A DNA stretch of 64,000 nucleotides from positions 23,913,483-23,977,482 of the forward strand of contig CP092884.1 of the NCBI GenBank assembly GCA_030710605.1, written 5' to 3'. Of this stretch, positions 23,713 to 63,064 are shown one piece after another (within the stretch, counting starts at the first letter, position 1; every line of letters starts with the position of its first letter). Position numbers and translations under genes: made by a program. Below the pieces are notes generated by a model. The model searched no databases. It worked only from the letters and a program-made list of their open reading frames with translations, and was not told the DNA's origin. This DNA comes from Cordylochernes scorpioides (lineage: Eukaryota; Arthropoda; Arachnida; Pseudoscorpiones; Chernetidae).

Positions 23713-24140
23713 ATCTAAAGAGACAAGGATCACCTCTCCCGTCAAAACCAGACGCCATCTATTGACCGTCGCCGCAAACTAGTGGCCTCGTGTCGGTGAC
23801 AAAGCCACAACACCAGCTTTGGCAAACTGGAAAGCGTCCACCTAGAGACCATGGTTTGGGGTAATGGCCCTCGTCAGCCTAGGGCAAACTTTATTCCATC
23901 AGATCCACACGGAATCTAATGGAATCTTGACAATCTGCCGAAAAGGTGTTTAGCTGGCAAATTGACTGGGCCAAATCTATGGCTAAAATATAGATGGAAA
24001 TTTTGCCGGGAGGATATTGATCTAAAGAGACAAGGGTCGCCTCTCCCGTCAAAATAGACGTCAAAACCAGACGCCATCTATTGACTGTCGCTGCAAACTA
24101 GCGGCCTCGGGTCTCTCTCGGTGACAAAGCCACAATCTAT
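23713..24140 (-). repeat. Retrozyme-like repeat, partial tandem, period 307 bp
   Basis: The block ATCTAAAGAGACAAGG at 23713 recurs at 24020, followed in both by CTCTCCCGTCAAAA and GACGCCATCTATTGAC. The first unit is about complete and carries the hammerhead-like motif at 23841-23883; the second is cut off by the LTR element at 24150. Other copies lie at 47500-47760 and 59095-59335 (both plus). Confidence 0.75.
23841..23883 (-). ncRNA. Hammerhead-like motif (degenerate)
   Basis: Stem I strands CCTAGG and TCTAGG pair over 6 bp (one G-U). The core CTGACGA is intact, the short stem III reads ACC-AT-GGT and the cleavage triplet is GTC. Stem II has lost a base and G12 of GAAA is a C, so this copy should be inactive. 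Confidence 0.6.
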
Positions 24141-24149
24141 ATATATATA

Positions 24150-24518
24150 TGTCATAATATATGCTCTTCCAGGAATAATAAGGTAAACCTACAGTCAACG
24201 AGAGAGAGACTCGATAGAAGGCAACTAAGTTACGGCCATTTTGGCCACATTCCTGAGGGGGCTTTTCTGGGAACCCTGCAGGACTATTTTTGGATAGTCG
24301 GGGGGTGGTACACACAACAAACGGTCGTTCAGCGGCTTTTCTGGGAACCCTGCAGGACTATTTTTGGATAGTCGGGGGGTGGTACACACAACAAACGGTC
24401 GTTCAGCGGGAAGCTCCTCGCGCCCGTCTCTCTCGCTGGCTGCCTGGGTTATTTCATCTACCAACTCGTCGTGTGATTATTTCTCTACTCACCACATTAT
24501 TATCACTATATTGTCACA
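24150..24518 (+). repeat. 5' LTR with internal duplication
   Basis: 369 bp. A segment of about 75 bp, from GGCTTTTCTGGGAACCCTGC to CGTTCAGC, occurs twice in tandem (about 24259-24408). The 3' LTR has one copy, which explains the length difference. Confidence 0.82.
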
Positions 24519-24640: not shown

Positions 24641-26796
24641 CCGGGAAGTAAATCCCTCATATACCAGAGTATATGAAGAAACAAGAAGCCAAGCCACGAT
24701 GATCGGCCAAACCCAACTCAACTGTAACCACTCCTCTTCGAGCGCTCAACCCCTTCCTCGCCAACTTTTGAACCGTGATCCCGAAGAAGTATTCACCTAC
24801 GACGGAGATGGAGCTGCCACGCACTTCTTCCAGCACTAGACCTGCCCAAGAACGATCGCCGCGCCAGAGCAGGACACCTTCCACCACCATGGACTCCGCC
24901 TTACCCCTGCCGCTACTGTGATGTACAACAAAAGTACGCACAGTGTCACAGACAGAACTCTCCCGAAGCTCAATGAACTTACCTGCGCCCTAAACCAACA
25001 TAACTCGTGAGTGTAATTGTTTTAACTCCTACCATTCATTCTTTAAATAAGTCATTCCTTGTAAATTGTCCCAATATTTTCATAATTAGCTCAATATGTG
25101 TGAATATGTAAAAATGTTTAATATTTCCATTTATTCTCTCCACGCCTATTAACAATGATTTTATACTCCATACTATATTTATCTAGATATTTGTAACTCA
25201 TTTAATTAGTTACCTTACCAGTAGAATTTAACAATCGTCGTTTTAATTAAATAATTTCCATTTTAACGTAACTTAAAAAAAATGGAATTCTACCTATTAA
25301 TGCTTTACGATTTTTACTATTAACAATATATTTTTTATTATCAATTTATCTATAAAAATACGCCTCCAGCACCTGAACTTTTGTATACCTATTTGTATAT
25401 GACCTCTCCTACTTGTAAGCACGACTCACGAAAAATAATTTCTTTCCCTTACCAACTCAAAATTCACCCTGTAATTCAGGCGTCGAAGAATTCCAACCAC
25501 CACGTGAGCCTTGCTTACAACCAACCCTTGGTGACTCTTATCTATCTTCCCCTTAATGTCCCACTCATTCTTACAACCTTGTCACCCTTATACCAGCTCA
25601 GGGCCTTTATATAATTATTGATTAATCAATTATCGAACATTATTACAAACAATATTGTCATTTCAAAATCCTAATCTTCGCCCTTCATTTATGATAATAT
25701 ATTTCGTAGTTCATCTCTAGCCTATCCACCGACCCACACCATCTAGCCAATGGTGTGTTCGTCACAGGATGCAGATTGACTAACTGCTAGATATTTATCA
25801 AACCCTTTTTGTTCGCACTTGAACAATCTGCATCGAGCGGCACAGTTCGCTTCTTCTTCTCGCGCCACACGTTCGCCACACGGACCCTGTCTTCAAATCT
25901 ATGTTTGTCCATTGTCCAAACCAGCACGATATAGCCTACCTTCGATATTTCCCACGGAGGTACGTTAAACATCGTCGCTGATTCTGTCCGGTCCGTCATC
26001 ATTTCGCGCAGACATGGGTCTTACTTTCAACCCACCGCGAAATCATCGCCTTGCACAAGCTCCCACGAAGGTTCAAACACCTCGTGTCCGAGCAGCTTGT
26101 CACTTGTAACGGACAACGCCGTCCTCGTCCCAATTTTTGGCACTGTGCGCGCATACTTTCCGCAAATTAAATATAAGTCCATTCGACTTCCTCACCTACA
26201 CATGGGACTTTTCCCCTCGGACTCGCTACACAAGTAACTGCATAGATAAGTTAGATTGGCCCAGGGCAAGTTTCCCCTCGCTCTGTTCGCCAAGGTTCTA
26301 ACATTGTATGTAGTTTTATATTTACCTCAGTCCTGAGCTCACACAATTGCCAAACTCAATCTCATTTCTCGTACTCTACACCCATAGCATAGAAAGTCCA
26401 TGACAAGTTTCCCCTTGCCATGTCCGCCTGAAAAATATCTTAAAGTGTAGAGTTCCCCAGTCTTAATGATCTTCAGAATTTCATCATATGTATGTGACTC
26501 TTCTTCTCGTTGTTCACACTCCTCCATATCATTTACCTTATAATACATTAGATTTTGTTGTATATAGCCTTTTATAACCTTGATATTTGCAAGAATTTCC
26601 TTAAATATCAAACTCTCCGGTGTTGTAAAACTGCTTGTAAATAATATTTACTTGTACTATACAATATTTTATTTACATAAAACTATGTCACCATAACCTT
26701 AATTAATTTCAACTGTAAATTTATTTTATCTATCCCTGGCTTCACCAGCTTTAAGTATACTCAAACCATGTTCAGCCTTCTTCAACGGGGGCCATA
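24640..26796. other. Interior of the short LTR element
   Basis: No known domain found. A cysteine/histidine stretch PYPCRYCDVQQKYAQCHR can be read near 24900-24960 (plus), but it stops after a few codons. A GC-richer part (25690-26330) has a minus-strand frame at 25787-26002 with no recognisable motif. Both could be captured host or gag sequence; I cannot tell. Confidence 0.4.
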
Positions 26797-27091
26797 TGTC
26801 ATAATATATGCTCTTCCAGGAATAATAAAGTAAACCTACAGTCAACGAGAGAAAGACTCGATAGAAGGCAACTAAGTTACGGCCATTTTGGCCACATTCC
26901 TGAGGTGGCTTTTCTGGAAACCCTGCAGGACTATTTTTGGATAGTCGGGGGGTGGTACACACAACAAACGGTCGTTTAGCGGGAAGCTCCTCGCTCCCGT
27001 CTCTCTCGCTGGCTGCTTGGGTTATTTCATCTACCAACTCGTCGTGTGATTATTTCTCTCCTCACCACATTATTATCACTATATTGTCGCA
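26797..27091 (+). repeat. 3' LTR
   Basis: 295 bp. Direct copy of 24150-24518 without the 75-bp duplication. Confidence 0.82.
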
Positions 27092-28652: not shown

Positions 28653-29511
28653 CTAGACGAATGGCCCGGGCAACGCCCGGGGTTTACCCGAGTGCGAATA
28701 TATTCTAAAAACGTTGTCTTGGGTGGTCGCTATAGACATGGTGGTCTGTATAGACAGGTGTATGTATCACACAGCCGATAACAGGGTTGTCTAGAGTGGC
28801 CGCTATAGACAGGGTGGTCTGTATAGACAGGTGGATGTATCACACAGCTGATAACAGGGTTGTCTAGAGTGGCCGCTATAGACAGGTGTATGTATCACAC
28901 AGCTGATAACAGGGTTATCTGGAATGGCCGCTATATACAGGGTGGTCTGTATAGACAGGTGGATGTATCACACAGCTGATAACAGGGTTGTCTAGAGTGG
29001 CCGCTATAGACAGGGTGGTCTGTATAGACAGATGTATGTATCACACTGCTGATAACAGGGTTGTCTAGAGTGGCCGCTATAGACAGGGTGGTCTGTATAG
29101 ACAGGTGAATGTAACACACAGCTGATAACAGGGTTGCCTAAGGTGACCGCTATAGACAGGTGTATGTATCACACAGCTGATAACAGGGTTATCTGGAATG
29201 GCCGCTATATACAGGGTGGTCTGTATAGACAGGTGGATGTATCACACAGCTGATAACAGGGTTGTCTAGAGTGGTCGCTATAGGCAGGGTGGTCAGTGGT
29301 CGCTATAGACAGGGTGGTCTGTATAGACAGGTGGATGTATCACACTGCTGATAACAGGGTTGTCTGGAATGGCCGCTTTAGACAGGTGTATGTATCACAC
29401 AGCTGATACCAGGGTTGTCTAGAGGGGGGCAGGGCGGACACGTGTTCGCCGGCAGCCAATGGGCGCGCATTCTATCCGTGAGCTTCAGAAAAAGGCAATT
29501 AAATAAGTAGA
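28653..29511 (-). mobile_element. Helitron (non-autonomous) filled with a minisatellite
   Basis: On the minus strand it starts TCTACTTATTTAATTGCC after an A at 29512 and ends in CTAG at 28653, followed by T. About 10 bases before CTAG is the terminal hairpin CCCGGGC/GCCCGGG. TC at the 5' end, CTRR with a nearby hairpin at the 3' end and insertion between A and T are the Helitron hallmarks. Nearly all of the interior is the minisatellite at 28722-29425. Confidence 0.8.
28722..29425. repeat. Minisatellite, 73- and 55-bp units
   Basis: Ten copies of a unit containing GTATCACACAGCTGATAACA and TGTCTAGAGTGGCCGCTATA. Successive GCTGATAAC words lie 73, 55, 73, 73, 73, 55, 73, 98 and 55 bp apart. The short units lack an 18-bp module GGTGGTCTGTATAGACAG. 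Confidence 0.92.
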
Positions 29512-29608
29512 TAGTATGGCGAGTCCTTACAGGACGGAAGTGTCCTAATAAAGCTGTTGTTGTATATATATAATTTTAAAATGCCTATTTTGGATCAAAA
29601 AGTTTTAT

Positions 29609-29652
29609 TTCCAATATTTCGTGTGGCAACTCGCCAAAACTTCTTCGGGGAA
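29609..29652 (-). ncRNA. Hammerhead-like motif (U4 mutated)
   Basis: Stem I GGAA/TTCC, core CCGAAGA, GGC/GCC hairpin, GAAATATT. The change at U4 should prevent cleavage. Confidence 0.5.
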
Positions 29653-29726
29653 CAAGATTGTTTTGAGATGCTCGCGTATGAAAACATACTCGTGAATTGA
29701 TACGCGAGCATCTCAAAACAATCTTG

Positions 29727-29769
29727 TTCCCCGAAGAAGTTTGGCTAGTTGCCACACGAAATATTGGAA
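29727..29769 (+). ncRNA. Hammerhead-like motif (U4 mutated)
   Basis: Mirror image of 29609-29652. Stem I TTCC/GGAA, core CCGAAGA, TTTGGCTAGTTGCCACA hairpin, then GAAATATT. Confidence 0.5.
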
Positions 29770-29979
29770 ATAAAACTTTTTGATCCAAAATAGGCATTTT
29801 AAATAATATAATATATGGATGGCTCTATTTTCAAACATATATATATATGATGATTGATGATTGATATGATTGATATGATTTATCATTCTTATCAGTTTGC
29901 TCCTTAAGTTTTAAATGTAGAATCACTGTTATATTTTTATTATATAGTTTTTACACTATATATATATATATATATTAAA

Positions 29980-34622: not shown

Positions 34623-34931
34623 TTTAACAAGTTTTACCGCAAATATTTCTTTTTTCGGAACGAAAAATAGGTATTTTACTTATTTTAAGGAAAAATAATG
34701 ACTATTCCTATCCTTAGGGATGAAGTATGAAAGGATGAATTGTGAAGAATAATGATGAACGGAATTCCCATCCCTGGACACTTTTATTTTTCCGTTCATC
34801 ATTACACTTCACAATTCATCCTTTCATACTTCATCCCTAAGGTTAGAAATAGTCGTTATTTTCTCCTTAAATAATTAAAATTACGATTTTTCGTTCTGTA
34901 AATAGAAATATTTGCGGTAAAACTTGTTAAA
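34623..34931. repeat. Foldback element with tRNA-like remnant at its tip
   Basis: Inverted arms of about 140 bp (from TTTAACAAGTTTTACCGC and its complement). The tip keeps TCCCATCCCTGGACACTTTT, the edge of the tRNA-like sequence that is complete at 62694-62766. Related pieces lie at 61710-61860 and 62630-62800. Confidence 0.7.
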
Positions 34932-35028
34932 CGTAGTTCTATAATCATAGCCGCATTATATTGTATTATAAACTTTTCTCAAGTTATATCAAAACATTTT
35001 GAAAATAGAGCAATCCATATTTAATTCA

Positions 35029-35223
35029 TTAGATAATAAAAAGGCATATATTGGATTTAATAAAATATTTATTTTGCCAATATTTCGGCTGGCTGAACGC
35101 CAACCTTTATCGAGGCATTACATCAAAGGTGTAATGCCTCGATAAAGGTTGGCGTTCAGCCAGCCGAAATATTGGCAAAATAAATATTTTATTAAATCCA
35201 ATATATGCCTTTTTATTATCTAA
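35029..35223. repeat. Inverted pair of Penelope ends (second palindrome)
   Basis: Nearly perfect arms of about 95 bp around AAAG at 35126. Arms contain GGCATATATTGGATTTAAT, CCAATATTTCGGCTGGCTG and CCTCGATAAAGG. The hairpin and GAAATATTGG are kept but the core is not CTGANGA. Confidence 0.8.
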
Positions 35224-36329
35224 TATCAAAACATGTAAACCAATTCGATGTTAATTAACAGAATATAAACTCTTTCGCTCTATTCCAGCATAAAATAAAC
35301 TCATTTCATTTTTCAGCATAACATGATGCCATTCACTATTGTAGTCAAATATAAACTTTTCCAAAGTCATGCGTAAATTATGCCCCATTTATGACCTTCT
35401 CTACAAAAAAAAATCTAAATAACTTGGATTAAATAAAATACCACAACATCAGCTTCGGAAAACTCGGAATGTACATCTGGAATGAAATATTCATATTATG
35501 GTTCATTTTATTATATGGTGGGTTCTATTTACAGATATACATAAGGAATACAATAGATGCTTATATGTGGCCGAAGAAGTGTTCACCTGGCAAAGTGACT
35601 AGACCAGATTCCATGTCTAAGATTTCCGTCTACTTTAAACATTTTGCACCGATTAAAAATAAACACAATTTCATTTCAAATAATATTATTATTCAATATA
35701 TTTCAATAAATGTGTTAGCCTATTTTCAGGGGAGAGGTTTTTGATGCTATAAAATATTATTATTAACACACATACAGCTTTATTAAGACCACCGGTCTTA
35801 TACAGATTCACCACAGGAAGGAAGCATAGATGGAGCTCCTATACTCCAGGCAGATCAGAACCTAACGCAGAACACAAGTGTGGAATCAGCCGCGTTTTAG
35901 TCTTCGCATTCGGCGATTCTATTAAACTTCCCCGAACGGTGACTGTGGCCTTGTGAATCCGATTATTCTACCTATTTCAATAACCTCTTTTCTCTGATGG
36001 CTTAGATGAGGATTTGTTGAGAGGAAATTGATCTTAAAATAGGATAACAGCCACTCAGTCACGAAGTATATTCCATCTATTGTGACTATCTTTATTATCT
36101 AGCAGATTCAAGTTTGTAGTTAAGCCAGAACATTTGCTTTAATAATTTTAGAACACCTATCTTCAAACCATGGATTTGGGTTCTGGCGCTTGATAATCCA
36201 AGTTACAATTTGAGATATCTACAAGGGATTCATAAAACATTTAGAATTTGTCACCAAGATGATTTTCAGTTGAAATGGTAGGCCATTTACTATGGAAATG
36301 TATAGGCAAAATTTGCCTCTAATCTTAAA
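35224..36329. other. Noncoding stretch
   Basis: No supported gene. Contains the second copy of the unidentified 75-bp repeat (35770-35850). Confidence 0.45.
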
Positions 36330-36570: not shown

Positions 36571-37241
36571 TATTAAAAGAGAATGGCTGCCTCTAATAAT
36601 GATACTGTGAATTTGTCAACGACACGAGTCTCATACTTTCTAGAAACGGTCAATCGATGGATTTTTGTGTTAATTTTGATAGGAAAGGTAAGCTTTTGAA
36701 ACTGATTATATTGTTGTACTTATACAGGTGTGTGAGACCATCTTATGTTTGTCTAAATATCTAGTTTACATATAGCTCCAATATATTATAATCAAATCAA
36801 TTTGTAACAAATATTCTTATCTCTTTTCGAAGTTTTTCTTGAAAATGTCAAAATATTGTCAATTCTTGATTTAGAACTAGGAGATAAGATTTTCCTTTTT
36901 TTTAATCCGAGGTAGTTTTGAATACGATGTTTTCATTATATCATCTTCCAATAATACAACTATAAGAAGTCTTGAAATAATTACGAAAGTAGAAACACAA
37001 TTCATTAATAAACGAATTAAAAAGTTTCTTTATTAGTGTAGAATGGAATTCTTTGATATTAAAATAATAAACTTATTGCAAATTTCATGTTTGATAAATT
37101 GTGTTTATAACAAAGAACTTTACCGTCAATTGTATATACTAATCTGAATTCATATTTTATATATATTGCTCTTGAGTATTAAAAGATTCAAACACATTTT
37201 TATCTATAGCTTTCAAGAACTTGAATGTTCGCTCAACGTTA
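36571..37241. other. AT-rich noncoding stretch
   Basis: No gene or repeat recognised. Confidence 0.45.
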
Positions 37242-37243
37242 TA

Positions 37244-38549
37244 CAGAGGGTGTCCACACTTATAGGAAACGAGCGCCCTGTGTAAAAAAGGAACTACAGT
37301 ATTACTTTCTTTTAAAAAATCAACAACGTGGAATTCGAAAAGGCTTAAGCTAATTCTAACACGCAATACATATCTTTTGTTATTTTAAAAAAATGCCCTT
37401 CAAATACAATAATTTCATAAGAGGTTATATTTTAGAACTTTACAGAGCTAATCTTACCTATTTGGACATAATTAAAATATGCAAACAAGATGATATCAAC
37501 ATTTCTAAAAAGGTATTTATAATATTATTCACGACAAAAATATCAAGTTTTTATTCAAAGCACCTACGGAGAAATGGACAAAAGATTATCACCCTATATC
37601 TGTGAGAGCTCCTGCAACTGTCAAAAAAGTGAAAAAATATATTACAAAATAAAATCCTATGCAACAAAGAGATATAGCCAAATTAATAGGAACATCAGTG
37701 TCAACAATAAATAAAATAATTAATAAAGATTTAGGCCTAAAAGCTACAAAAAGGCATGCGGTTCACAAATTGTTTCAGAGCCATATTCGTCAGCGACAAA
37801 CTATCAGCAGATATTTTTATGAAAATTTATTGGCTGCTGATAGATGGAAATTTATTGTTACATATGACGAAGCATGGGTATATTTAACCGATTGCGACAG
37901 AAAAAGAGCTATATACTATCAAAATAGGGTGGAAAAATCTAGGCCATTTTGGGTGAAGGAATGTGCCGAAAGTTACCCCAAAGGATTTATAGTGGCATGC
38001 GGTATATAATATGAAGGAAAATTAAAAATAAGAAAAGTTGAAAGAAATGCCAAAATAAACTTGGAGTACTATCAAAACAACATTTTAGAACCTATATTTT
38101 TAAATGATATTCCCTCTATCTATGAAAAACAGAGCAACAAAGTCTGGTTTCACCATGATAACGCCACAAGTCATACCTCATCTTCAACCCAAGCTTATTT
38201 GGAAGATCTAAGGCAAATAACAGGAATCAACACTATTCCAAAGAACAGAACCCCTGTAAAATATCCTGATTTAGCCCCGATGGATTTTTGCATTTTTGGA
38301 GGCCTTAAAAGAGCACTTGGAAAGAGACACCCTAGGACAATTGAAGGTCTCTGGAAAGTGGTAAAAGAAGAATGGGATCTTTTGAGTATGACCATGATCA
38401 GAAAGTGTCTGCTATCGTGGAAAATCAGGTGCCGTTCTGTAAATAAACAAAAAGGCTTTCAAATAGAACATTTGAAAAATTTCAAATATGGTGTTAATTT
38501 TTAATATTTTATAATAAAACTTGTTTCCTATAAGTGTGAACACCCTCTG
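37244..38549 (+). mobile_element. Mariner-like transposon, DD41D
   Basis: A 1306-bp element flanked by TA (37242-37243 and 38550-38551). The inverted repeats start CAGAGGGTGTCCACACTTAT and match over 27 bp with one difference. It encodes one broken transposase on the plus strand. Confidence 0.9.
37393..38504 (+). pseudogene. DD41D transposase, broken
   Basis: The N-terminal helix-turn-helix region is at 37393-37570 (FIRGYILELYRANLTYLDII). The frame then shifts near 37570. Stops are at 37650-37652 and 38007-38009, the latter in the middle of the catalytic domain. The second DNA-binding region reads MQQRDIAKLIGTSVSTINKI. The catalytic residues are all still visible: VTYDEAW, WFHHDNATSHTS and YPDLAPMDF. 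There are 41 residues between the second and third aspartates. That spacing is the mark of the DD41D (rosa/Visitor-type) group rather than classical DD34D mariners. The element cannot make its own enzyme, but its ends are well preserved. Confidence 0.85.
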
Positions 38550-38582
38550 TATGGATATGAAATGTAAGAGGAAATTACAGCA

Positions 38583-38810
38583 ATACACTCATGGACAAAC
38601 CTTAAGAAAGTGGAAAGTATTTGATGTTGCCAGTCGTCTGCTTTTTTTTTTTTTTTTTTAAGAAGACAAAGAAAATTTTGGTCACACATGGTTATCTCGT
38701 GTGTCTTCAATAAAAGTCACTGTGTATCAAATATCTTTCAGAGTTATTGTTTTAAATCCCGATATACATGTTAAAAAGTACAACTTCCTTAAGTTTTGTC
38801 CATGAGTGTA
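38583..38810. mobile_element. MITE, CACTCATGGACAAA family
   Basis: Inverted repeats CACTCATGGACAAACCTTAA and its complement ending in TGTCCATGAGTG, flanked by TA. A long T tract is in the left half. Relatives: 42511-42719, 57782-57973 and 59680-59885. The TA duplication points to a Tc1/mariner source. Confidence 0.8.
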
Positions 38811-39496
38811 TATATTTTCAAAGCTATTAAATATTTATGCGCATTCGTTTTTTCTTTACTTTTAATAAACAATTTTCTACTAATAATATTTATCATTGCT
38901 GTAAGGGCAGTAAGGGTGTGCTTATCAAAATATAGAAACACTTGCGCCTGTTATTTTATAATTTTTAATCTAGCAAGTATTTGATAAAGAAAATAGTGCT
39001 TTACAATAGTTTATTTCTTTTAAATACATAGCGACTTATGCTTTTAAAGAAGTATTAAATTTAAATATAATTTAGAGGTTTCTCATCAAATTAATTGTAA
39101 AGGAATTTTTAAATACCAAAAAATGAATTAATTTATCTCCAAAAGATAAATATAAACTTCACATCAAATAAAATTATAAATAAAACTATTCAAACATTCC
39201 ATTCTATAGAAATTCAGCGCAAAAAAAAAAAGTTTAAAACAAGCCGTTCAACAAGTTAGGAAAATATTTAATCAGTGATTGGTCAAAAATAAATAAAGTT
39301 AGTCACAGAGTGCAGCGTGTCCAGGCTAATTTGTCTCTCAACGTAAACCAATTAAAGCGATGCCACCTGGCGTTGGCTAATGGAAGCTCCCATCCCTTTT
39401 AATAAAATTGACGTAACCTCTTCTATTGGTCATTTAGCTTCATGTATTCGCCTAGCTATCTTTCCTTGTATATCCTCTAGGATTTAATATACATAA
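38811..39496. other. AT-rich noncoding stretch
   Basis: No gene or repeat recognised. 39300-39420 is slightly GC-richer but without a frame. Confidence 0.45.
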
Positions 39497-39715
39497 TAAT
39501 CTCTCTTTAGCGGACAACCCACTAGCGGACACTTCTCTACAAAGGACAGTTTTCATTTTGCAAAATTACCGTCTTAACTATTAGTTAGGTGTGGTGTATG
39601 TATAGAACACTCCATAACTAAATATTTAGGTTAAAAAAGTCGAATGTTAGTTTAACAAAAGGATTTGCCAACTTGTGCCCGTTTATTATATAAAAAAATG
39701 AATATATATATATAT
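39497..39715 (+). repeat. Direct repeat flanking the Penelope element, left
   Basis: About 215 bp, roughly 90% identical to 41927-42128. Contains GAGGACAC/GCGGACAC and ACTTCTCTACAAAGGACAG words typical of the pogo/Tigger-like MITE at 42134-42310. Confidence 0.7.
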
Positions 39716-39719
39716 ATAT

Positions 39720-41894
39720 TAATTAAAGGGCATATTTTGGATCTAATATAAAACAAACATTTTATTTAATATAAAATTCCAATATTTCAATAGGCTATAC
39801 GCCTAACTTCTTCAGGGCGTTTCTTGTTTTTAAACTGCTTCGGATGATCACGCGATGCCTTCACGCGACGATATATAAAATATTTACAACTCTGGGGCTA
39901 AAATTTAAATATATACACATAAGTATCAATAATAATAGACTATATATACATGATTCATAATAAGTATAATAATAAGAATATGAAAATAATTTTAAATCGA
40001 TTTGAACTGTAAATATAACGGAGGGATGTCAATTTCTATTAATACTGTTGGTATCTTTCATTGAGGTCCAACTTTCTAAAAATAGTCTTGAGTGTTTATC
40101 CTGAATGTTGTTGTATATAATATTTGTATTTTCAAAATTTGGTATATGGTCCTGTTTGAGTGCGTGATCTACTAGAAGTGATAATGGGCTTTCTTCAAGA
40201 GTTTTACCTGTTTCTCCTATGTAGGTTGCTGGGCATGATTTGCATGGAATGCGATATACTCTATTTGATTTAAATTCATGATTGCTATTATGTTTAGTGT
40301 TGGGATGGCGTAAAATTTCTTTCAGATTTGCTGTGGTTTTGTATCGGGTTTTGATATTGTAATTTTTAAGTATTCTTGTTATTCTTTCAATGCCATAATT
40401 GTATGGCAGTGCACAGTATTTATTCGATTCTTCACTATTGTTTGTGGGATTGTTAGTGGGCTTATATATATGTTTCTTGATGAAACTTGGAGGATATTCA
40501 TTATTTTTCATCTCATTGTAAAATATGTTTTGTTCGGATTTAATATTTTTAATATTTGAGGAGCAGTGGGTGGAAATTCTTTTAGAAAGTGTTTTTATAA
40601 CGGATATTTTATGATTAATGGGGCCAAATGAATTAAAATTGAGATATTTGCCTGTATGCGTTGGTTTTCTATATATACTGGTTTCTATTTTGCTATTTAT
40701 TCTGGTGAGCTTGATGTCTAAGAATGCTAAAGAGGTGTTATTTTCTATTTCGTATGTAAAAGTTAAAAATGGCTTTAAACTGTTGAGGAAGGTTAGAATA
40801 TTGTCGAGGTTGCTATTTTCACTGATGCAAATGATGTCATCAATATATCGTTTCCAGGCTATTATTTTGAGATGTTTGGTTGCAATGATAATATTGTCAA
40901 TATGATTCATATAAATATTGGCGAGGGCAGAAGAAATTGGATTGCCCATTGGAAGGCCTTTAATCTGTTTATAATACTGGTTTTTGTAACTGAAATAACT
41001 GAAGGATAAACATAGATCGAGTAAGTCTTCAAGTGCTTCTTTGGAAATCGTTAAATTAAGTTGTGGATTGGTGTCTATAAATTTTGAAATTTCACTAATG
41101 GCTTCTTTATGTGGGATAGACGTGTATAAAGATTCAACATCAAATGAAACCATGTGGTAATTTTGGGGTATCGCTATTCCTTGCATAACCTCTACCATTG
41201 ATGTGGCGTTCTGAACGGTGTGGGGGAGAAATTTCTGAAACGGCGATATTATTGTTGAGAGATATTTAGCTAACGGATAGATTGGTGAACCGGTGTAAGA
41301 GACTATAGGACGAAGTGGGTTATTGGGTTTATGAATTTTCGGTAAACCATAGAATATTGGTAGATCACGTTTTGATGCTCTGATTTTTTCAACAACTTTG
41401 TTATCTAATTTGTGCGTGCGTTTTATTCTATTCAAATTTCTGTTGAAATATTTTATGATATTCTGTAGAGGATTAATAGTTAACAGTTCGTATATTTCTT
41501 TGTCTTTAAGTAATTGCTGTATTTTGCTGCCATAGTCTGCTATATCCATTATCACTGTGTTTTTACCTTTGTCTGAAGGAGAAATTATAATATTATTATT
41601 TTCTTTTAGGAAACTGATGGCTTTTCTTTCCTCATGATTTATATTGGTCTTGTTCTGGCGAGTCAGATTTTTAAGAATAGGAATGACTTCTGTTCGGATC
41701 TTTTCCTTGTTTGAATCTGCAAGGGTTTTGATTGAGGTCTCTATTGATGCAATTGTTCTAGGGATATCGAGTTTCTGGGAAGGAACAAAGTTGAGGCCTT
41801 TGGATAGTAGAGATATGGCTTCTGGAGGAATGGATTGTTTCGATAAATTGATCACATTGTCATTGGTTGTGCTTTGGATTTGGGGTTTGTTACT

Positions 41895-41924
<30 letters not shown>
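39720..41924 (-). mobile_element. Penelope-like element, main copy
   Basis: Carries an open Penelope reverse transcriptase/GIY-YIG frame, a 210-bp 3' UTR and a terminal repeat with a hammerhead motif (39777-39818). The 5' end is truncated at a TA microsatellite (41900-41924). Direct repeats of about 210 bp flank it on both sides. Confidence 0.88.
39777..39818 (-). ncRNA. Hammerhead-like motif at the Penelope 3' end
   Basis: Core CTGAAGA, hairpin AGGC-GTATA-GCCT, GAAATAT, and a 2-bp stem I (GG/CC). The core bases are all present but stem I is weak. It lies about 210 bp after the stop codon of the Penelope frame. Confidence 0.6.
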
Positions 41925-41929
<5 letters not shown>

Positions 41930-41948
41930 AACCTCCATGAGAGGACAC
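40029..41948 (-). CDS. Penelope-like reverse transcriptase with GIY-YIG endonuclease
   Basis: Open for 639 codons. Residues 1-18 are not genuine: they read flanking repeat and a TA microsatellite (IYIYIYIYIW), so the true N-terminus is lost. Reverse transcriptase motifs follow: YGLPKIHKPNNPLRPIVS at 200-217, SFDVESLYTSIP at 268-279, GLPMGNPISSALANIYM at 331-347, the catalytic YIDD at 368-371 and LAFLDIKL at 407-414. A C-terminal GIY-YIG endonuclease starts at VYRIPCKSC (564-572) and TYIGETGKTL (575-584), with the CX2C of the Penelope type. After residue 584 the conserved arginine and EHK part of the endonuclease seems deleted, when compared with the fragment at 58644-58845. Penelope elements use the endonuclease to nick target DNA and prime cDNA synthesis. 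The polymerase looks intact but the endonuclease is probably defective. Confidence 0.9.
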
Positions 41949-42128
41949 TCCTGCTAGAGGACACTTCTCTACAAAGGACAGTTTTCATTTGCAAAATTAT
42001 CATTTTAACTATCAGTTAGGTGTGGTGTATGTATAGAGCACTCCATAACTAAATCTTTAGGTTAAAAAGTCAAATATTAGATTGAGAAAAGGATTTGCCA
42101 ACTTGTGTCTTTTTATTATATAAAGATA
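41927..42128 (+). repeat. Direct repeat flanking the Penelope element, right
   Basis: Partner of 39497-39715, same orientation. Confidence 0.7.
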
Positions 42129-46659: not shown

Positions 46660-47499
46660 TTAGTGACATTTTCAGAATAAACTGGCAAAACTTCCAGCAA
46701 GCCCTCTACATAGTGCCATTTCACTATTCGGTTACATACTCTCTCTGGAAAGGTTAGAATTGTGCAATAATTATCCAGTTCATTTTATATGTTCGATGCG
46801 GACTTCGATCCCGAAAGTTGAAGTTTAAATTATATTCCATGGTAGAGTGTAAAGACGGATAATTAATGTCACATGGTGATTTTACGTCTATTTTATATAT
46901 TCGGCGCCCTTTGCTTTTAAAGTTCAACTAGCCGAATGACCTGAGCCAACTTCGGGTTTTACCCTAGTGCGTATAAATATTTAAAATGTTTTTATTCAAA
47001 TATTATTCGTTACAATTATAAATAGGCGCCGTGGATGTCACTCTTGTGAAACGTCACTCTACAAACTGTTCACGTTCAGCCTGGAGTACACACGCGAATG
47101 TTTCCAGCAAGTGATTTCTTACCCCTACCCTTACGTCACTTTTGTCAACCGTCCCGCTCCACCTTCCTCACACATCAATCCCCGTCGCGCCGTGTGGGGG
47201 CCCCACGTGGGCCATCCTCCCATAGCTGGATTTCACCCAACTTCCCCAACTTTACTTCTCTCAGTTACCGCAGTGAGGCGCTGGTTGCGAATGAAATAGA
47301 GAAATTTGTTAATAACTCCAAAGATATTCGAGATAGAAACCTGACAATTTACCTATAAGTTTTTCTATATTCAACTCTATATACTGTTAATATTTCAGCC
47401 AAATTAGTTACGTATTGTGGAAGTCTATGGCCGACAAACATATATAAACACGGGGAACTTTTAATATATATGATTACCTCCAGGAAAATTTTCATCTAT
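46660..47499. other. Noncoding stretch with a GC-rich island
   Basis: 47030-47300 is GC-rich and open in two plus-strand frames (47098-47358, 47111-47299). Neither shows a domain. The rest is AT-rich without a recognised repeat. Confidence 0.4.
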
Positions 47500-47765
47500 A
47501 TTACGGCTATAGATTTCTCGCCCAGCCACTTTATCAGCTAGACACCTCTTTGGCAGATTGTAAATATTTCATTAAGTCCCGTGTGGACATCATAGAATGA
47601 AGTCCGTCCTAGAATGACGAGGGCCATTAGCCCGAAACCATGGTCTCTAGATGGATGCTTCTCAGTTAGCCAAAGCTGGGTTTGTCGCTTTGTTACCGAC
47701 CCGAGGCCGCTAATTTGTAGCAACGGTCAATAGATGGCGTCTAGTTTTGAAGTCTATTTTGAATC
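47500..47765 (+). repeat. Retrozyme-like repeat, single copy
   Basis: Plus-strand relative of 23713-24140, sharing the hammerhead region, CAAAGCTGG, CGAGGCCGCTA and CAATAGATGGCGTC blocks. Confidence 0.7.
47607..47651 (+). ncRNA. Type I hammerhead ribozyme motif, best stem II
   Basis: Stem I CTAGA/TCTAG pairs 5 bp; the core is ATGACGA (C3 changed to A). Stem II GGGC/GCCC around CATTA is perfect. GAAA is intact, the palindrome ACCATGGT forms the short stem III, and the cleavage triplet GTC ends at 47645. Confidence 0.7.
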
Positions 47766-47869
47766 GAGAGGCGAACTTAGCTTTTTTAGATCAATTTCCA
47801 ACTGGAATATTTTCCGACTATATATATATATATGTTTGAAAATAGAGAGCAATCCATATATCACAATAT

Positions 47870-48125
47870 TTAAAAAATGCTTATTTTGGATCTTAAGTTT
47901 TTATTTCCGATATTTCGTGTGGCAACTCGCCAAACTTCCTCAGGGAACAAGATCGCTTTGAGAAGCTCGCGTATCAATTCGCGAGTATATATAACTGCTA
48001 TAAAATTTAAATATCTGCAATCTACAATATGCATGCCTATGAATATAATTAATAATAATAAGATAGTATGTAAAACATTAATATATAGAGAAATAAGTAA
48101 ATATACACATTTAAAATAAAAGAAT
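47870..48125 (-). repeat. Penelope terminal repeat with 3' UTR
   Basis: Nearly the same sequence as 57115-57385, in opposite orientation. It includes the hammerhead at 47905-47947 and a UTR part with GCATGCCTATGAATATAATT. No coding part remains. Confidence 0.75.
47905..47947 (-). ncRNA. Type I hammerhead ribozyme motif with intact core
   Basis: Stem I TTCC/GGAA (4 bp), core CTGAGGA, hairpin with TTTGGC-GAGTT-GCCACA, GAAA, minimal stem III (ATAT) and C as the cleavage base in ATC. All conserved core bases are present. One extra A follows the core, as in all copies of this family. Confidence 0.7.
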
Positions 48126-58855: not shown

Positions 58856-59094
58856 AATTAGAATTCTTGAATGGACGTGTATAGCTTTACACATGTGTGT
58901 AGATATGTATTGTGACTACAGTATCTGGATTCTAGGATAGGCAGAAATGGAAAAAATTGAAATCTCCAAGATTTATTACTGGTCTGGAATATTAAGAATA
59001 TAATGTAACGGTAGAAAAAGTAATAAGTATGACTTGATCGAGGTAAGATATAGCCTTCTGAGACAAAGCAGACGAGAAGAACCAGCAAGTTTGG

Positions 59095-59335
59095 ACAATG
59101 CCGCGTTGCCAGCCAAACACATATTTTTCAGATTGCGAAGATTCCATTAGATTCCTTGTGGATCTCATCGCCCTAGGCTGACGAGGTCCATTATCCCGAA
59201 CCCATGGTCTCTAGGTGGACATTGTCACCGTCCCGAGGCCTTTAGTTTGCGGTTACGATCAATAGATGGCGTCTAGCTTTGACGTCTATTTTGACGGGAG
59301 AGGTGACCTATATCTTTAAATATATCAATGTTTTC
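59095..59335 (+). repeat. Retrozyme-like repeat, third copy
   Basis: Collinear with 47500-47765. Contains a hammerhead motif at 59172-59215 and CAATAGATGGCGTC. Confidence 0.7.
59172..59215 (+). ncRNA. Hammerhead motif with intact CTGACGA, degenerate stem II
   Basis: Stem I CCTAGG/TCTAGG, core CTGACGA, stem II reduced (GGTC/TCCC), GAAC in place of GAAA, cleavage triplet GTC ending at 59209. Confidence 0.6.
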
Positions 59336-59679
59336 TCGGCAAATTTTCCAGCTTACTCTTAGAGCTCTATCCCGTTTATTACGGTCTTTTTTTATTGGTT
59401 CCGGCCCCAAGTTACAGCCAGCTTCTAAATATTTTATTTTGGTCAGTATTTATTTTCCATAAGAACAGATGACCATAAAACCCACTGATTCGACGAAATT
59501 CCAGACTTCTTGGTAGTGGCCTGTAGATAATTATTTTATTTTCTCATATTTCTTTTTGAATATATCTTTTGGTTTCCCACTTATAGTGCGCTAATGGTCG
59601 AATTGCTAGAAAAGCATTATAACCAAGTTTTACTCTTGTAAGTCTATACAAAACTAAATATATAAAAAACATAATATAT

Positions 59680-61260: not shown

Positions 61261-62144
61261 CTATGGTATTTAAAATATATCTATGAAAGGTATTGAATTC
61301 AATATATATTTCTATACTGGAAATGAAAATACTTGGATTTATTACTATTAAATTATTGTCGATTCTACAGTTTTGAAAAACAGGACAATATATTAATTGA
61401 ATAATGCAACATGTTTCTTGGAGATGGGTTTCTTTTGTGGAAAGGAAACATCTTCAGAAACTTGTTTTATTATTTAATTTATATCCAGTATATTTGAATA
61501 AATTAAAATAAAATTTTTAAAGGATACATGAGAAATATCTTTCTTTCTTATCTCCACTCAATCATATTAGGATAGGCCTTTGATGGTGTCTGTTTGACAA
61601 ACATCATGACTGGGTGAAGTAGAATGCGTCTGCCTTTGTCATTAAGACAGGGAGCACTACTCAGTGGCAGGCCAACTAAGCTCCGAAAGAATCTGATTAG
61701 CTCCGATTTATCTTAAGGAGAAATAACGATTATTCCTATCCTTAGGGATGAAGAATGAAAGGATGAATTGTGAAGAGTAATGATAAACGGAAAAATAAAT
61801 TGTCCAGGGATGGGAATCGAATCCATAGTGTTCCGCAGTGTTAGACAGGAAATTTTCTTTCGTGAAGAATCCTTGATAGATTTTCTACTCAGGCCTTACT
61901 GATAACAACCCAACTTATCTACAGTAGAAAATAAGAGGGAATTCCGAAGTTTGGAATCTGACCTTTTCTTTTAATTGATTTTTCTATTAAATTGTAATAT
62001 TTAGAATTAAAGCATTGCTATTTAATATATAGGAAACTAACACGCGATCTATATATTCTAGTGTGGTATTTATTATTCTATCAAGAGATTTATTTAATTC
62101 ATAAAAAGTTCGATATCGTAAGGCGAAAAGTTAGAAAAAATTAA
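61261..62144. other. AT-rich stretch with one foldback fragment
   Basis: 61710-61860 is a partial copy of the tRNA-like foldback family, including GGGATGGGAATCGAATCC. No gene. Confidence 0.5.
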
Positions 62145-62225: not shown

Positions 62226-62693
62226 TTAATATGTGAATAACCTTCACATAGTATATATTATATATACTATAGACTTTCTATCAAAATAGTATTAATTGTT
62301 GCAAATATCATAAACTAGGTTGTTCTTGTTGAGCGGTACCTAATAAAATGATTTTGAAACAAAAAAAGCTAGAAAAATAGGAAAATATGTTTCTTCTGTG
62401 GAAGGGCAGTGGTGCTCAAGAGTTCGGCAAAATAATAAAATACTTTAAAAGAAACCTCTAGACTTATGATTTCGCGATTTTTATGAATTTGTTCAAGGGG
62501 ATTATATTATATATATATAATATTAATATTATATTTAAATATAAAACACTTAAAGTTTCACCGCATAAGTTTCTTTTCTGTGAAAAATCAATATTTATTT
62601 CAAAGATAAATATTTACTATTTCTAACTTTTTTTGGATGAAGTATGAAAGGGTGAAAATATGAAGAGTAAAGGCGAACGGAAAAATAAAAGTG

Positions 62694-62766
62694 TCCAGGG
62701 GCGGGAATCGAACCCAACAACCTTCCGCTTACCGGGCAGATGCCATGTCCACTAGGCTACCCTGGA
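62694..62766 (-). tRNA. tRNA-like gene with full cloverleaf, inside a foldback repeat
   Basis: 73 nt. The acceptor stem TCCAGGG/CCCTGGA is perfect (7 bp). TA follows at positions 8-9, and there is a D arm with GCCTAGTGGACATGGC. The anticodon stem TCTGC/GCGGA has 5 bp with one G-U pair; the loop CCGGTAA gives anticodon GGT (threonine). The T loop TTCGATT has a mostly paired stem. Position 33 is C instead of the near-universal U, and no CCA is encoded. It is flanked by inverted GAACGGAAAAAT and ATTTTTCCGTTC, so it is more likely the tRNA-like head of a repeat than a working gene. Confidence 0.5.
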
Positions 62767-62803
62767 CGTATTTTTCCGTTCGTAAATAATACTTAAAGTA
62801 ACT

Positions 62804-63064
62804 TATAATACATTATAAAGGACTGCGGCGTATGATTATAAAACACTTAAAGTTTCACCGCATAAGTTTCTTTTCTGTGAAAAATCAATATTTATTTCAA
62901 AGAGAAATATTTACTATTTCTAACTTTTTATTTTATTTTTTAAGTTAGAAATAGTAAATATTTCTCTTTGAAATAAATATTGATTTTTCACAGAAAAGAA
63001 ACTTATGCGGTGAAACTTTAAGTGTTTTATAATCATACGCCGCAGTCCTTTATAATGTATTATA
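62804..63064. repeat. Perfect palindrome, arms about 120 bp
   Basis: The left arm starts TATAATACATTATAAAGG and the right arm is its complement, with no difference that I can find; spacer of about 18 bases at 62934. Half of the arm also occurs at 62546-62632. Confidence 0.9.

Follow-up and report, generated by a model that had tools for sequence, protein, structure and literature searches.

How does a small non-coding repeat that carries a hammerhead ribozyme spread through an animal genome? The question is raised by a 64,000-nucleotide stretch of the genome of the pseudoscorpion Cordylochernes scorpioides (contig CP092884.1, positions 23,913,483–23,977,482, hereafter the window), which contains three decayed copies, A, B and C, of a repeat that can be aligned with one another over ~300 bp. 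A reading of the letters alone (the original prediction) took them for members of a retrozyme-like family bearing a type I hammerhead; what it missed, and what is new here, are the ends of the insertions, which point to the machinery of Penelope-like elements (PLEs). A literature search, beyond whose reach most subscription papers lay, found none naming both a hammerhead ribozyme and a pseudoscorpion, two pairing the ribozyme with arachnids and no title on the ends of retrozyme insertions; the match found that joins the terms retrozyme, Penelope-like and target-primed was PMC7229834.

A repeat family with a conserved hammerhead core

All three hammerhead-like copies were found at their predicted positions, each with defects of its own (Table 1). 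The inner hammerhead of copy B runs CCTAGA ATGACGA GGGC CATTA GCCC GAAACCATGGTC TCTAGA, with stem I composed of an outer GTCC/GGAT and an inner CCTAGA/TCTAGA part, stem II at 47621–47633, GAAA at 47634–47637 and the palindrome ACCATGGT at 47637–47644; its core reads ATGACGA, with C3 changed to A. Pairing in stem I is kept despite base changes, as had been predicted, base pair 1.1/2.1 being U-A in copy B and U-G in the other two copies. The predicted 307-bp period is correct for copy A but too short as a unit length, because the second pass of this copy has deletions; undamaged natural units measure 319–321 bp. A descriptor allowing at most one core mismatch matched exactly A and B in the window, with a mean of 0.13 matches in 150 dinucleotide shuffles and two matches reached in 1 of 150. 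The only match to a strict pattern in the window, at 61408–61457, was rejected as a chance site (0.36 expected). Other repeats of the window include a tandem array at 28713–29386 with periods of 73, 128 and 274 bp, adjoining PLE pieces, and two perfect 74-bp direct repeats at 24260–24409 within a longer repeat also present at 26794–27073.

Table 1. Features of the window and, for the tRNA-headed repeat, of further loci.
Feature	Position	Strand	Remarks
Copy A	23713–24135	−	~1.35 units, partial tandem, S-type 3′ end
Copy A hammerhead	23841–23883	−	CTGACGA core intact; stem II lacks one base; G12 changed
Copy B	47473–47823	+	~1.1 units; same as L001 1414–1764; ends at site T, adjoining (AT)n
Copy B hammerhead	47602–47656 (inner part 47608–47651)	+	expected cleavage after C47645
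Copy C	59090–59353	+	diverged, internal deletion, end near site T
Copy C hammerhead	59172–59215	+	defects in stem II and GAAA
Weak old repeat piece	35441–35623	−	62% identity
Weak old repeat piece	36606–36696	+	67–69% identity
PLE frame (stop-to-stop)	40029–41984	−	reverse transcriptase and GIY-YIG-like C-terminal part
PLE 3′ end with 'tail'	47816–48116	−	abuts copy B 3′ end at (AT)n 47819–47833
PLE 3′-end pair, head-to-head	29570–29848		29570–29682 minus without tail, 29686–29848 plus with tail
Second PLE 3′-end pair, head-to-head	34985–35218		minus with tail, plus without
tRNA-headed repeat	62401–62780	−	
tRNA-headed repeat	34629–34970		
tRNA-headed repeat	62837–63031		
tRNA-headed repeat	L005 423–961		
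tRNA-headed repeat	L019 419–680		
tRNA-headed repeat	L014 1826–2028		

Across the 2.62-Gb genome, the 32-nt motif with one base left free has 9,251 exact matches (0 for the reversed pattern), and 16,603 when the stem II region is a free stretch of 8–20 nt (1 in the control); since the motif is intact in thousands of genomic copies, it is not due to chance. A typical intact copy reads CCTAGA CTGACGA GGGC CATTA GCCC GAAACCATGGTC TCTAGG with outer stem I GTCC/GGAC, and both CTGACGA and GAAA are intact in 33 of 39 copies examined (40 loci, repeats of a locus included). The type I core CUGANGA ... GAAA ... UH and stems I and II are therefore present in the family, each window copy lacking a part. 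No protein is encoded, as predicted: in two natural units no ATG frame exceeds 49 codons. The GC content, 0.480 in the L005 unit and 0.494 and 0.498 in two others, is below 50% and not below 45%. Two subfamilies, alpha and beta, differ within positions u12–u61 of the unit. One retrozyme insertion recurs at ~8-kb spacing in L003, L004 and L007 (contig C24, 163.31–163.33 Mb), and so seems to lie inside a larger tandem repeat.

Conservation was analysed in 35 loci, picked for their similarity to copy B and not for having an intact motif. Minority bases occupied 3 of 420 cells (0.7%) at the 12 core positions, fewer than the 83 of 2,900 (2.9%) in the remainder of the queried region (Fisher p 0.007) or the 51 of 1,575 at non-core hammerhead positions (p 0.003). 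Four stem I pairs were changed on both sides (mean of 1.4 in shuffles, 17 of 500 reaching 4) and stem I covariation was 0.121 versus 0.100, with none of 500 shuffles reaching 0.121; this control is not a probability because the copies are related. With the structure slid by +1, five pairs were changed on both sides, but only 37% of cells were paired compared to 94.6% in the structure itself. No paired (compensatory) changes occurred in stem II in the same sample. A preference for the core bases and paired changes in both stems, among copies genome-wide, had been named as the test of the original prediction: in the sample analysed, the core is spared and paired changes occur in stem I, which supports the reading of the family as retrozyme-like and of its hammerhead as type I.

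A hammerhead that more likely works as a dimer

In a single strand, stems I and II form, and helix III has only two pairs with a 4-nt CAUG tip; the hand-set single hammerhead has an energy of −17.4 kcal/mol against a minimum of −23.9. The minimum-energy folds of single strands contain stems I and II and no helix III in L005, L021 and copy B, and those of A, C and one old copy do not have that stem I/II arrangement. No stable loop-closed helix III formed in one strand, compared to eight pairs when two strands pair. Co-folded without constraints, two strands are joined by the palindrome ACCATGGT into a double hammerhead, in which helix III is 8 bp long and the CUGACGA and GAA strands are open. 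Its energy is −55.0 kcal/mol for L021 and L022 (versus 2 × −23.9) and −47.0 for B, values that come without a shuffle control. The palindrome that had been read as a minimal stem III is thus present, but the helix III that it gives in one strand falls short of what a good single hammerhead needs, and so the ribozyme more likely works mainly as a dimer. Candidate partners for tertiary contacts between loops 1 and 2 are an internal loop in stem I (2/1 nt) and a loop 2 of 5 nt. Rfam hammerhead models gave no match in the window (whole and as three stretches), in eight loci at gathering level or in an intact copy with the E threshold raised to 10, and a scan of viral contigs with a degenerate motif likewise gave none.

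Sm-alpha of Schistosoma, with which the original prediction compared the family, has a fuller helix III than this repeat. It is alike in being a small non-coding repeat with a type I hammerhead (PMC6155905). Amphibian satellite and axolotl hammerheads share the very short helix III, the palindromic tip, the expected dimer and a unit of ~330–350 bp (PMC7229834) and differ in sequence, in forming tandem repeats and in their vertebrate hosts. The dimer mode has been described for newt and axolotl hammerheads (PMC6155905, PMC7229834), and dimeric PLE hammerheads appear in the title of a study cited in PMC7761336.

Most insertions are head-to-head pairs with two different 3′ ends

We collected 60 insertions of at least 120 bp from 55 loci, shorter ones being dropped; rows L001, L004, L007, L011 and L028, which duplicate another locus or represent the copy in the window itself, were left out of the counts. 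Forty-two insertions are minus-plus, that is head-to-head, 16 are plus only and two minus only, and none is plus-minus (tail-to-tail), both outer ends being the 3′ region of the unit itself. The tandem arrangement of the original prediction thus holds for copy A, a partial tandem, but most insertions examined are inverted pairs and not simple direct tandems. Neighbours no more than 1.5 kb apart among the 145 genome matches listed comprise 14 (−,+), no (+,−) and four same-strand pairs (three of these 319 bp apart), and the first 100 matches listed contain 12 neighbours versus ~1 of any kind expected by chance.

The outer ends fall at two sites, T at u86–101 (mostly u91–97, ~u94) and S at u47–68 (mostly u57–63, ~u58). 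Where both ends of a pair could be classed, one was S and the other T in 32 of 34 (Fisher p 1.2e-5; 25 T/S, 7 S/T, 1 T/T and 1 S/S, the last two having equal ends), and 8 of the 42 pairs have an end outside S and T. The same rule held in 12 of 12 pairs among twenty loci taken in order along one contig. S-primed tracts are the longer ones (median 304 versus 140 nt; 23 of 32), in loci chosen by the hammerhead, which is nearer S.

Insertions lie in AT-rich DNA, with an AT content of 0.83 in the flanks versus 0.63, and in 22 of 34 a run of (AT)4 or longer starts or stops no more than 25 bp from an end, versus 5.8% of random pairs. Matches between the two flanks of at least 8 nt with at least two G/C were found in 6 of 34, compared to 0.18% of mismatched pairs (permutation p 1e-4), and the target-site duplications are ~8–14 bp, clear where G or C is included (L040, L051, L006, L044) and, like those of metazoan non-LTR retrozymes, longer than 4 bp. 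At 7 of 56 loci (B, L029, L036, L039, L056 and L058, with L059 called by eye), a retrozyme end has a PLE 3′ end at most a few tens of bases away.

A template read beyond one unit

Tracts longer than one unit make up 23 of 58 plus and 7 of 44 minus tracts (lengths are spans, and the long plus tract of L009 probably joins an older neighbour), and the cleavage site is spanned by 16 of 44 minus tracts. Inner ends at u230–245, around the cleavage site, occur in 4 of the 44 minus tracts and in 1 of the 58 plus tracts, so there is no clear stop there. Tracts beyond one unit and read-through of the cleavage site argue, together with the uniformity of L022, for a template that either had not been cut or had been religated, in the form of a circle or of a uniform multimer. 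L022, the longest stretch seen, has more than five units in two orientations, in segments 97.6–100% identical to each other; all seven of its passes of the diagnostic region are beta, and the six that reach u64 share an uncommon variant otherwise seen in one pass of L020. A single subfamily is found throughout 27 of 30 insertions (p 9e-6 against an assumed 51%). Subfamilies are mixed in the other three (L002, L005, L033), a result not expected from a pure monomer circle. Weighted raw identities, 0.953 within versus 0.894 between insertions for plus-minus and 0.905 versus 0.902 for plus-plus comparisons, were not relied on, being affected by spurious pairs with neighbouring old copies and by over-extended junctions; uniformity therefore rests on L022, L030 and the subfamily count.

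The three mixed insertions would suit the same element if its template came from a genomic array transcribed into a linear multimer and was never a circle, and one unit can indeed be exceeded without circles. Such a template is somewhat improbable in view of the 27 uniform insertions, of the seven beta passes of L022, six with the same uncommon variant, and of animal retrozymes being known as circles (PMC7229834).

Retrozyme insertions resemble those of Penelope-like elements

PLEs are present in the window. The frame at 40029–41984 reaches upstream through (AT)n at 41897–41925, with a further (AT)n at 39702–39719 beyond the 3′ end, and its best protein match is a predicted protein of C. scorpioides (98% identity, 57% of the query). 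Pfam made no GIY-YIG call in its C-terminal part, which we take to be GIY-YIG-like from its motif. Thirteen head-to-head PLE pairs, called by eye and in part from loci (L061–L072) chosen for a tail on one end, carry the tail at one end only in 11 cases (p 0.02) and at both ends in two (L062, L063). Five of them were met in passing (the two in the window, L029, L036 and L039) and eight came from the tail-chosen loci (L061–L066, L069, L071); of those 12 loci, L067 and L070 (no partner end), L068 (an apparent chimera) and L072 (flanks as in L071) were dropped. L068 711–1527 is a retrozyme insertion whose right end is a 26–30-nt PLE tail and neither S nor T; since L069 shares the right flank, this is ambiguous between a nested insertion and a cDNA begun on PLE RNA that switched template to the retrozyme RNA. 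By eye, the PLE 3′ regions at 39781–39817 and ~47905–47947, both on the minus strand, have a hammerhead-like motif, CTGANGA(A)-stem II-GAAATAT(C/T), with no helix III, in keeping with descriptions of PLEs.

Retrozyme and PLE insertions are alike in anatomy: both have inverted ends, a tail on one of them and an AT-rich target. Published PLEs share the head-to-head inverted ends, the tail on one, the AT-rich targets and partial tandems (PMC3846280, PMC11167929), and also have a hammerhead upstream of two start sites. In rotifers, inverted head-to-head pLTRs have a tail on one and target-site duplications of 8–10 bp (PMC3846280). The purified PLE protein of the anole (Anolis) starts reverse transcription at two adjacent sites that delimit the tail; when given AT-rich DNA, it cuts both strands and extends them (PMC11167929). 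Retrozyme insertions look as this behaviour would predict, with the difference that strands showed no difference in start site in the anole assay whereas the two ends of one insertion here almost always differ. PLEs encode a reverse transcriptase and a GIY-YIG endonuclease and the unit encodes nothing; it works like a PLE but is not one. Its tail, of 36 nt, is unrelated in overall sequence to the PLE tail.

The rotifer paper attributes inverted pLTRs to self-priming on an antisense template, and not to two-end priming (PMC3846280). Here too, with the same element and PLE helper, inverted pairs might arise by self-priming on one cDNA or on an antisense template, and short palindromic matches were seen by eye at some inner junctions (L013, L027). 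This is unlikely, given that the outer ends show a constant difference, S at one and T at the other in 32 of 34 pairs, that both abut target DNA with duplications, and that a purified PLE protein cuts and extends both strands (PMC11167929).

The likeness also raises the possibility that the unit is itself a deletion derivative of a PLE, a free pseudo-LTR whose hammerhead is the PLE's own and not of retrozyme lineage. The parts have the same order, hammerhead and then two start sites; the PLE 3′ regions here carry by eye a CTGANGA-stem-GAAATAT motif like a minimal PLE hammerhead; the start of the beta tail, TATGGATTG, resembles the PLE tail by eye; and helix III is minimal, as in PLE hammerheads (PMC6155905, PMC7761336). 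The PLE motif, however, lacks three parts of the unit's hammerhead, namely the inner stem I of 6 bp, the outer helix and the bases of helix III, and PLE protein pieces, which lie near or abut L024, L029, L039 and copy C, are continuous with the unit in none of 42 sequences. BLAST of PLE references against the unit gave no match, which also leaves recognition of the unit by a PLE protein unexplained. Taken together, these points make such a descent decidedly doubtful.

Twin priming by LINEs also produces inversions, and twin-primed LINE copies have one 3′ end. LINE frames are present in the window, and a SINE mobilised by a LINE with ordinary twin priming might give inverted copies, yet both outer ends here are 3′ ends, unlike in ordinary twin priming, and the targets are (AT)n. 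No head-to-head neighbours were found with two LINE probes, a small sample of a handful of copies, or for an unrelated dispersed repeat (end of 37500–38900; 16 sequences), and we consider a LINE origin very improbable. A tRNA-headed repeat failed as a negative control, having the same head-to-head shape (five pairs among 16 segments) and 3′ ends of two lengths; it is probably another passenger of the same machinery, and the shape therefore marks the machinery and not retrozymes. In L019 this repeat has an apparent duplication, AGTATAACAGTATA. A foldback or inverted-repeat DNA transposon with a chance resemblance to a hammerhead would account for two ends that are inverted copies of one sequence, but is scarcely credible with arms that are unequal and exceed one unit, scattered inner junctions, ends differing by 36 nt in a fixed way and a spared core.

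Proposed mechanism and implications

We consider it probable that the repeat is a non-autonomous, non-LTR retrozyme of animals whose hammerhead is of the dimer type, and that it is copied from a circular or multimeric template and mobilised by PLE machinery through priming at two ends. The insertion shape suggests spread by a Penelope-like enzyme: the ends, orientation and duplications are features of the insertions themselves, and from their likeness to PLE anatomy we infer the enzyme, which would be a PLE protein, and the order of steps. Transcripts of the 319–321-bp non-coding unit would carry a type I hammerhead acting chiefly in dimeric form, the 8-nt palindromes ACCAUGGU of two units pairing with each other in a structure that is computed and whose activity is presumed. 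Cleavage and host ligation would yield circles, by analogy with published retrozymes, and circles or uncut multimers would serve as template, as indicated by the tracts that are longer than one unit and continue across the cleavage site. A PLE reverse transcriptase-endonuclease would then cut both strands of AT-rich DNA in a staggered manner, giving rise to the target-site duplication. Both target ends would prime, one cDNA starting from site S and the other from T, 36 nt apart on the template, and the two cDNAs would grow towards each other and join into a head-to-head insertion with two 3′ ends.

Metazoan non-LTR retrozymes (PMC7229834, Cervera and de la Pena 2020) are alike in their non-coding unit of 170–400 bp, type I hammerhead and thousands of copies, and in having duplications of more than 4 bp, insertions exceeding one unit and PLEs in the same genome. 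They are described as tandem repeats, whereas here we find mostly head-to-head pairs with two defined start sites, and their GC content is given as below 45–50%, versus ~0.49 here. According to a review from the same laboratory, no motif betrays the helper element (PMC7761336). As for mobilisation in trans, a host gene was moved by a PLE, and no cross-mobilisation was seen between rotifer PLE types (PMC3846280).

More broadly, animal hammerhead retrozymes may be parasites of PLEs, a PLE protein dimer loading one circular RNA, cutting both strands of AT-rich DNA and starting cDNAs at S and T of the same circle, and also moving the tRNA-headed repeat, a proposition on which we are evenly divided. 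If it is true, every insertion records both start sites. The insertions that could be read bear the signature of PLEs, their start sites being resolved to within a few bases and the intact motifs of the family numbering in the thousands, and they make the question of the helper, open for animal retrozymes, directly testable. Moreover, the rule of one S end and one T end is one that any model of PLE integration must explain.
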